DNA from: Burkholderia sp. Bp8992
GTDB lineage: Bacteria > Pseudomonadota > Gammaproteobacteria > Burkholderiales > Burkholderiaceae
DNA: 64,000 bases
Direction: 5' to 3'
Assembly (NCBI RefSeq): GCF_003853705.1
Contig: NZ_QTQI01000015.1
Coordinates: 124,001 to 188,000 of the forward strand
Shown here: positions 16,026 to 30,761 of the stretch, one piece after another
How positions within the stretch are numbered: the first letter of the stretch is position 1
Layout of the letters: each line of letters begins with the position of its first letter
Program-made: the position numbers and the translations under genes
Notes under the pieces: generated by a model
What the model was told of the DNA's origin: nothing
Seen by the model: the letters and a program-made list of their open reading frames with translations, nothing else
The model's database searches: none

Positions 16026-16200
16026 GACGGATCGGATGGCGAGAGGCGAACGACGGGGAAGCGGTCGGCGGAACGCGTTTGGCGGTGGCGACGCAGGCGC
16101 CGGTGCGACGTGCGTGCCAGTATCACATGGTGTCGCTTTCGGCGCAGTGAAGTGCATCATGAACCGCGCTGGCGTGCCGCGGCAGATGCCTGCGCCAAAT

Positions 16201-16238
16201 AAAAAACCCGCGAGCGCTGTATTTCTCGCGGGTTTTTT
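16201..16238 (-). terminator. Rho-independent terminator after tRNA-Leu
   Basis: The hairpin has a 14-bp perfect inverted repeat, AAAAAACCCGCGAG and CTCGCGGGTTTTTT, around a 10-base loop. It lies 36 bases beyond the CCA end of the minus-strand tRNA-Leu gene and ends in a T-run in either direction, so it could act bidirectionally. Confidence 0.85.
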
Positions 16239-16274
16239 CACCTACATCGAATCGATTCGCGTCAACGCAATCGA

Positions 16275-16609
16275 TGGTGCCGGGGACCGGACTTGAACCG
16301 GCAAGCCAGTTAAGGCGGCGGATTTTCGTCACACTGCTTCTTTCAAAGCCGGCGTCGCGTGAGCGATGCCGTTCGTGCGCTGGACTATGCCTTCACCGTC
16401 GCGCGCGGGCGTGACCGCTGCCCGTGCGCCTTAGGCGCCCCCCGTCTAGTCTCTACACCTTCCTCGCGAATACCGCGAGGCTTGGCTCGGCGTTGCCTCG
16501 ATGCGCACATCAGGGGTTTCGCCGAATTTGAAGGGTTCTGCACCGACCGTTTCCGACCGGGCACTCAATCGTTTAAGTCCGCTATGTTTACCAATTTCAT
16601 CACCCCGGC
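16275..16609 (-). tRNA. leuZ-like: tRNA-Leu(UAA), interrupted by a group I intron
   Basis: The 5' exon (16609-16575, 35 nt) and 3' exon (16326-16275, 52 nt) join into an 87-nt leucine tRNA. The acceptor stem is GCCGGGG paired with CCCCGGC, discriminator A and an encoded CCA. The D arm holds AATTGGTAAAC. The anticodon arm after joining is GCGGA-CTTAAAA-TCCGC with anticodon TAA, and the T arm is CCGGTTCAAGTCCGG. The intron sits between U34 and A35, the same place as in cyanobacterial and chloroplast tRNA-Leu(UAA). A TGGTAGAAT extended -10 element lies at about 16633-16625. The gene symbol is only a guess from the anticodon. Confidence 0.93.
16327..16574 (-). ncRNA. Group I self-splicing intron (subgroup IC3-like) in tRNA-Leu(UAA)
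   Basis: A 248-nt intron without an open frame for an endonuclease. The 5' splice site follows U34, and the intron ends in G (16327), as group I chemistry requires. The core elements are all visible. P (TTCGGCGAAACC, about 16526) pairs with Q (CGCCGAGCCAAG, about 16492) in P4. R reads GTGTAGAGACTAGACGG and S reads GGCATAGTCC, and their GACTA (16451-16447) and TAGTC (16387-16383) form P7. GAGT in the intron can pair with ACTT of the 5' exon as P1, with a G-U pair at the splice site. From memory, the core is very close to the Azoarcus tRNA-Ile intron. Confidence 0.93.
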
Positions 16610-28318: not shown

Positions 28319-28593
28319 GACATCTCTCCACTACATGGGTTTAGGAGCCGAATAGACGGAGCACATCGCCGGAAATGACAGCGATGTAGAAAAAATTTTA
28401 GACGCCTGAAATGAAAGGGCGGAATGCTGCACCGCTCGGCGCTTTCCGGCCCGGCCGGGACGCGGATCGGCGGCCGCGCTTGCTGCGCTGCACCCTGCCC
28501 GGCTCGCCGGCGGCGGCACGGCGATTGCGTGGCGGCATCCGATCCGCTCCCGGTTGAAACCGCCGCCAAGCCGGTGTATCGTGTGCCCTTGCT

Positions 28594-30761
<2,168 letters not shown>

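Follow-up and report, generated by a model that had tools for sequence, protein, structure and literature searches.

The group I intron of tRNA-Leu(UAA) is a textbook example in the argument over whether introns are ancient or mobile. A 2014 review presents it as the classic case of inheritance from cyanobacteria to plastids within this debate, and lists tRNA introns in cyanobacteria as well as in a few members of the alpha- and betaproteobacteria (PMC4033280). A 2007 paper counts four bacterial tRNA genes with group I introns (PMC1995217), and the 2021 tRNAscan-SE 2.0 paper mentions Acidovorax and Burkholderia as carrying such introns in tRNA-Ile2 (PMC8450103). Our literature search, with few subscription journals within reach and some sources available only in part, found no tRNA-Leu(UAA) intron in Proteobacteria.

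Here we describe an interrupted tRNA-Leu(UAA) gene in Burkholderia, located in a 64-kb stretch of DNA (the window). Very probably, its intron is removed by group I splicing to give a normal tRNA-Leu(UAA) and has been inherited mainly vertically in the genus and in many related genera. A preliminary description, made from the sequence alone, had placed the gene correctly at 16275..16609; it lies on the minus strand. The same description proposed two exons that rebuild a full tRNA-Leu(UAA) around a 248-nt intron. This was confirmed, as the spliced exons formed a complete cloverleaf identified by ARAGORN as tRNA-Leu(taa), and the program reported tRNA-Leu(taa) i(36,248) when introns were allowed. 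Joining the exons with one base less broke the anticodon. The intron occupies the site U34|A35; the preceding base is U (U34) and the last intron base is G, both read in the sequence as had been described. The coordinates of the gene and its elements are given in Table 1.

Table 1. Coordinates of the interrupted tRNA-Leu(UAA) gene and its elements in the window.
Feature	Position	Strand	Evidence
5' exon of tRNA-Leu(UAA), 35 nt, last base U34	16575..16609	-	ARAGORN tRNA-Leu(taa) on spliced sequence
Group I intron, 248 nt, final base G	16327..16574	-	RF00028, ARAGORN with introns, own covariance model R1, covariation in relatives
Intron 5' end with internal guide AUUGAG; GAG opposite exon CUU (predicted pairing)	16560..16574	-	sequence
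P3 5' strand CCCUUC; partner 16438-16443	16530..16535	-	99.8% of cells paired, 4 of 6 pairs changed on both sides
R element GAAGGTGTAGAGACTAGACGG; P7 5' strand GACUA = 16451-16447	16442..16462	-	sequence, alignment, covariation
P3 3' strand GGGGGG	16438..16443	-	alignment, covariation
S element; P7 3' strand UAGUC = 16387-16383	16380..16397	-	99.5% of P7 cells paired, compensatory change in one lineage
3' exon, 49 nt: variable arm, T arm, discriminator A	16278..16326	-	ARAGORN on spliced sequence
Encoded CCA end	16275..16277	-	sequence
Inverted repeat, then T run, 3' of gene; terminator-like	16201..16238	-	sequence and fold of 16196-16275, z -3.94

The terminator-like stem and T run were not among the results of a terminator scan of the region, and a sigma-70 scan found no promoter for the interrupted gene. 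Open reading frames overlapping the intron were short and mechanical. With a length of only 248 nt, the intron would not accommodate a homing endonuclease.

The gene is easily overlooked. Default ARAGORN found no tRNA anywhere in the window, in line with the expectation that standard tRNA finders may miss it. The covariance-model search that had been suggested as a check gave a divided answer: RF00028 matched the minus strand at 16584-16359 and covered model positions 1-253 (E 8e-9 when 501 bases were searched), with a score of 40.0 bits that lies below the gathering score of 50. Because of this 10-bit shortfall against the curated cut-off, a gathering-level Rfam scan shows no intron here, and its sole listing for the window was a TPP riboswitch. 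This riboswitch (28589-28705, plus strand, 64.7 bits) is situated just upstream of a region matching thiC of Mycetohabitans. In a first survey of 61 related genomes, a match was present in 39 and exceeded the cut-off in none. Since default ARAGORN and thresholded Rfam both miss the gene, tRNA counts obtained in this way omit the only UUA-reading gene found.

Secondary structure was assessed using 37 named pairs of P3, P4, P5, P6, P7 and P8, with P3 and P7 crossing. The covariance model R1 comprised 176 positions and was built from 13 cores, that of the window included, while the covariation alignment drew on 87 loci from several groups, which gave 88 matches, and did not have the window as a row. 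Standard pairs were observed in 95.7% of 3155 cells. Changes on both sides affected 26 of the 37 pairs (23.0 in shuffles) and 619 cells, compared with 185 in shuffles. The covariation score was 0.529 versus 0.160 for shuffled alignments, with 0 of 500 shuffles as high, and amounted to only 0.045-0.081 once the partners were slid. Compensatory changes were seen in both P3 and P7. Since R1, to which the alignment was fitted, has P3 but no P7 in its structure, P7 offers the cleaner test; in one lineage, P7 GACUA/UAGUC was replaced by GAGCA/UGCUC with pairing kept. These comparisons establish the anatomy of the intron and its conservation.

The covarying P3/P7 core in 88 relatives, together with the E-value of the RF00028 match, bears out the original assignment to group I. 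The interrupted gene carries a genuine group I intron, probably of IC3-like type, for which splicing is predicted. The IC3 label follows general usage, and the title of one study reportedly classes the Azoarcus and Synechococcus pre-tRNA introns as IC3. A single alignment and model (A2, R1) accommodated both Azoarcus-type and cyanobacterial tRNA introns. Of the 172 instances of Leu(UAA) interrupted at U34|A35, 154 had the motif TGAG among their first 45 intron bases. In the window, the sequence suggests that exon CUU pairs with guide GAG, placing a U-1.G pair at the 5' splice site.

By the known chemistry of group I introns, the precursor would adopt the P3-P8 core fold, and exogenous guanosine bound in P7 would attack after U34, which would be held by the U.G pair of P1. 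The freed U34 would then attack after the terminal G, and exon joining would yield a normal tRNA-Leu(UAA). The same chemistry leads us to expect that the intron is catalytic, that it is spliced in the cell and that splicing is essential. To our knowledge, UUA is readable by tRNA-Leu(UAA) alone; as no intact gene for this tRNA was found, growth of Burkholderia should depend on its splicing. The load on tRNA-Leu(UAA) is presumably light, since UUA is rare in the window, with 2 occurrences among the 14,294 codons of 34 ORFs chosen heuristically.

Decayed copies of such genes do exist. On plasmid pBB1 of Cupriavidus necator N-1 (locus L002), the front of a Leu(UAA) intron is kept and similarity is then lost, and ARAGORN found no tRNA at this remnant. 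The window gene might likewise be a silent gene with a non-splicing remnant, UUA being read by another tRNA, but we regard this as highly improbable, given that the core helices are intact in the window and covary in relatives, that the exons are also intact, and that every one of 65 genus genomes has the intron and none was found to have a second UAA gene.

The gene and intron counts were drawn from related genomes, the window's own assembly not being among them. The genus is taken to be Burkholderia because a 24-kb part of the window matched 14 Burkholderia records of a plasmid collection, B. ambifaria, the one listed, at 91.9%; Mycetohabitans matched at 79-85%. Counting any host gene, R1 matched 65 of 65 genomes of the window's genus, 105 of 220 genomes of the family (18 of 25 genera) and 63 of 399 genomes of the order (46 of 158 genera). 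Further afield, and again in any host gene, R1 matched 71 of 244 genomes from the Planktothrix phylum, 40 of 289 from the Hoeflea class, 52 of 274 from the Carnimonas class, which includes Burkholderiales in GTDB, and 9 of 198 from the Tsukamurella phylum; outside the genus, the weakest of these matches may be other group I introns.

For 34 genomes of the genus, ARAGORN gave a reading of the host, which was Leu(UAA) in every case; in the remaining 31, the R1 match lay within ~45 bases of a match to exon 2. The spliced-tRNA query matched all 65 genomes, the best match being exon 2 alone (E never <1.6e-20), and exon 1 was matched separately. Judged by the best E per genome for this query, none of the 65 contained an uninterrupted full-length tRNA-Leu(UAA). 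Near full-length 79% copies among the matches listed were tRNA-Leu(CAA) in the two that were read (L028 and L031). The supposition that this is the only tRNA-Leu(UAA) gene thus holds as a gene count, the interrupted gene being the sole UAA-reading gene found in 65 of 65 genus genomes. A second R1 match was present in five of these genomes (G011, G025, G082, G031 and G034). ARAGORN assigned second introns to Arg(CCU), Thr(UGU) and a CAU tRNA (L025 in G011, L026 in G025 and L410 in G082).

The history of the intron within the family was followed in a tree built from 238 columns of 51 introns, including four introns from outside the family. On this tree, in which many groups were single rows, 22 genus-by-host groups required 21 changes, the least possible number, compared with a shuffled mean of 37.4. 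By genus alone, 20 changes were needed for 19 labels, where 18 would be the least possible, so inheritance was not strictly vertical. The 12 rows of the window's genus formed one clade (97/90). Since the intron tree largely tracks genera and the genus rows are one clade, the intron is old in the family and has very probably been passed on mainly by vertical inheritance, both in the genus and in many genera related to it, although it was repeatedly lost or gained. The DNA flanking the gene was common to the window and many, not all, genus genomes.

Empty sites are also found in the family. Among 17 family genomes without an R1 match, ARAGORN identified an uninterrupted tRNA-Leu(UAA) in 15, and six of these 15 genes were 90-97% identical to the window's spliced tRNA. 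Four genera with empty sites (g94, g109, g122 and g168) also have members with an intron in tRNA-Leu(UAA). The presence of empty sites in kin, even within intron-bearing genera, indicates that the intron is dispensable in evolution.

A sister set of introns resides in another leucine tRNA. The 12 family introns with P7 GAGCA formed a starred group with six Leu(UAA) and six Leu(CAA) hosts, within which the tree shows two host changes. All ten Leu(CAA) genes read (L058, L073, L075, L305, L385, L391, L397, L398, L401 and L404) carry the intron at 34|35, after C34, and keep TTGAG in the guide; six further ARAGORN 'caa' readings look misassigned and are not counted among them. With C34 opposite the guide G, a C-G pair would stand at the 5' splice site, where U.G is nearly universal. 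According to one paper, the base preceding the intron is as a rule U, and tmRNA introns are the exception, with C paired with A (PMC11915505).

To survey hosts beyond the family, an R-element pattern scan was applied to named genomes and returned at least 118 stretches. ARAGORN anticodons proved unreliable at many intron loci, with misreadings such as 'Stop(tta)' for L001 and 'Ser(aga)', 'Phe(aaa)' and 'Phe(gaa)' for some alphaproteobacterial loci, and a second host solver was therefore written for 327 R-element instances, of which 40 were left unsolved. As this solver was doubtful for several non-Leu hosts (His ATG versus Arg CCT by ARAGORN), it was used only for Leu(UAA) interrupted at U34|A35. 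It placed 172 of the 327 instances in this class, although the two programs disagree at some of these loci and the instances are no census, containing repeats of single genomes and an excess of Burkholderia.

The 172 instances included 44 from Alphaproteobacteria, 35 from the window's genus, 33 from Cyanobacteria, 30 from other Burkholderiales, four from unplaced Pseudomonadota, four from Bacteroidota and two from plasmids. Another 15 carried the 'Gamma' label of the class of Carnimonas and may be partly betaproteobacterial, since this GTDB class includes Burkholderiales. Three from Acidobacteriota and two from Eremiobacterota (Vulcanimicrobiota) came from metagenome bins, which could be misbinned. 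The isolates on which ARAGORN and the solver agreed include Falsigemmobacter faecalis, Reyranella soli and the true gammaproteobacterium Carnimonas nigrificans, and two Phaeodactylibacter isolates (Bacteroidota) were assigned Leu(UAA) U34|A35 by the solver. The preliminary description was right to equate the insertion point with the cyanobacterial site, U34/A35 of tRNA-Leu(UAA), as the same site was read in Cyanobacteria. Its list of known tRNA hosts, namely tRNA-Leu(UAA) of cyanobacteria and plastids, tRNA-Ile(CAU) of Azoarcus and tRNA-Arg(CCU) of Agrobacterium, was too short: further bacterial groups were found, and the other hosts called by ARAGORN include Arg(CCU), Met/Ile(CAU), Ser(UGA), Thr(UGU) and Asn(GUU).

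Two further arrangements of tRNA-Leu(UAA) were encountered. In loci L091, L092, L097, L104, L105 and L109, ARAGORN placed the interruption a few bases further on, at i(40); the tRNA may have a second intron site here, and those of the six that entered the tree belong to another clade. In an Azoarcus-like genome (G452, C1 about 1895089-1909533, L426), the first and later parts of a tRNA-Leu(UAA)-like sequence lie 14 kb apart on one strand, perhaps reflecting an element integrated in the tRNA gene.

The preliminary description had further combined an Azoarcus core with the cyanobacterial site. The position U34|A35 is as stated, but the claim that the core nearly equals that of Azoarcus was not borne out. 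Over 143 core columns, the window shared 68.5% identity with L072, an Azoarcus-type tRNA-Ile intron, compared with up to 87.1% with other Burkholderiales tRNA-Leu(UAA) introns. L072 is presumably the tRNA-Ile intron of Azoarcus BH72 itself, judging from two stretches of that intron that both occur exactly in it. Identity reached 78.4% with alphaproteobacterial Leu introns and 64.0% with cyanobacterial ones (median 57.6%). Introns of other hosts nearer than L072 reached up to 77.7%, for example 75.7% for one in Thr(UGU). The string GAAGGTGYAGAGACTNGACGG is common to tRNA introns of many groups and is thus not an Azoarcus signature. The apparent near-copy of Azoarcus represents the general conserved part of the intron class, so the supposed mixed character of the gene provides no evidence of a recent mosaic.

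Deeper relationships were examined in trees of intron cores. From the 327 instances, 278 rows were kept after near-copies and short pieces were dropped, and subsampling of those with a called host left 186. In a quick tree of these 186 cores, the window fell in a starred group of 28 rows (95*), 25 of them from Burkholderiales and all tRNA-Leu (UAA or CAA) by label. Another group (94) held 17 of the 18 cyanobacterial Leu rows, and L072 was on the far side of a deep fork from the window. For a careful tree, 24 long or odd rows were removed, leaving 162; its bootstrap had not settled, and its smallest starred set joining the window to rows beyond its genus mates was a mixed one of 56 rows, which is weaker than the 95* group.

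AU tests were then considered for several unions of rows. The main Burkholderiales Leu set comprised 21 of 24 rows (L066, L067 and L071 left out), the cyanobacterial Leu set 17 of 18 (L247 left out) and the Azoarcus-type set 10. Apart from the set of all 82 Leu(UAA) U34|A35 rows, the sets were defined with the tree already known, which weakens their p-values, and the core offers few informative columns (148). All 24 Burkholderiales Leu rows as one clade were not rejected (p 0.346), and one clade of the main 21 was slightly better than the free tree.

It is unlikely that the intron entered Burkholderia by recent transfer from an Azoarcus-type tRNA-Ile or a cyanobacterial tRNA-Leu(UAA) intron. 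Unions of the main Burkholderiales Leu set with the Azoarcus-type rows (dlnL 31.5, p-AU 0.167) and with the cyanobacterial rows (dlnL 40.5, p-AU 0.12) were not rejected, which leaves room for such a transfer as far as these post hoc sets and the 148 columns can tell. However, the family intron tree largely tracks genera, the core identities to L072 and to cyanobacterial Leu introns given above are low, and the quick tree places the window among Burkholderiales tRNA-Leu introns, with L072 across the deep fork. Mainly vertical inheritance within the family fits these results better.

Descent of every bacterial intron at the Leu(UAA) site from a single ancient one would agree with the sharing of tRNA, site and a similar guide by several phyla, yet such a common origin is quite improbable. 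One clade of all 82 Leu(UAA) U34|A35 rows was rejected (dlnL 154.7, p-AU 0.000275). The union of the main Burkholderiales set with 20 alphaproteobacterial Leu rows was rejected as well (dlnL 190.3, p-AU 2.2e-6). Both results share the limits of the model, and introns leaving the site for other tRNAs would likewise split the clade. We lean, with some reserve, towards regarding U34|A35 as a general bacterial hot spot that was entered repeatedly, the cyanobacterial/plastid and Burkholderiales lineages being among several there and the Leu(CAA) introns a sister set with C-G.

Interrupted tRNA-Leu(UAA) genes were also detected on plasmids and second replicons. Of 72,556 plasmid records, 1280 contained matching DNA, which in 1257 extended over >=80% of the query; among 5,426 complete E. 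coli genomes, the corresponding figures were 635 and 624. The enteric plasmid matches were considered as possible noise, and this was rejected, since they are tRNA-Leu(UAA) genes with a group I intron, unannotated in L001:2990-3287, L003, L369 and L370 (CP042600.1, NZ_OR492670.1, NZ_CP102870.1 and NZ_CP032204.1). An aac(3)-II gene was located near the plasmid-type gene in all four records opened, with IS elements around, and in three of the four an annotated AAA ATPase, which we take to be tmrB, lies between the interrupted tRNA gene and aac(3)-II. A literature search for 'tmrB' together with 'group I intron' found nothing. In the quick tree, the enteric-plasmid intron grouped with the introns of a Bradyrhizobiaceae bin and a Novosphingobium bin (95*), a placement that points tentatively to an origin in Alphaproteobacteria.

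In records of Mycetohabitans and Candidatus Vallotia (see also L392 and L405), the interrupted tRNA-Leu(UAA) is on a second replicon or, in Vallotia of adelgid insects, on a plasmid of 61-72 kb. Genomes under the same genus code as these loci are as small as 1.1-1.2 Mb. An essential tRNA might help to maintain such plasmids.

What is of interest here beyond a known kind of intron is the spread of the U34|A35 site. A genus-wide betaproteobacterial interruption at the same base, with further lineages elsewhere, makes the ancient-versus-mobile argument testable on many cases. If the site is indeed a repeatedly entered hot spot, the cyanobacterial/plastid intron, long held to be special and ancient, would be one of several lineages there.

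Among the described systems, the intron of Azoarcus sp. BH72 pre-tRNA-Ile(CAU) resembles that of the window in its intron class, conserved core strings, position in the tRNA anticodon loop and small size (205 nt in L072); it differs in its tRNA, and in L072 ARAGORN places it directly after the CAU anticodon. The tRNA-Ile2 introns of Acidovorax and Burkholderia are likewise proteobacterial tRNA introns that escape tRNA finders, but they interrupt another tRNA, and the passage that notes them does not mention tRNA-Leu(UAA) (PMC8450103). The CAU tRNA with a second intron in the window's genus (L410 of G082) may be compared with them. The Agrobacterium-type tRNA-Arg(CCU) intron belongs to the same intron class and also occurs in the window's genus (L025 of G011), whereas its tRNA is different and its site follows the anticodon, at i(37). 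The cyanobacterial tRNA-Leu(UAA) intron shares with that of Burkholderia the tRNA, the site U34|A35, a similar guide and similar first bases; in the quick tree, by contrast, 17 of its 18 rows group by themselves, far from the window.
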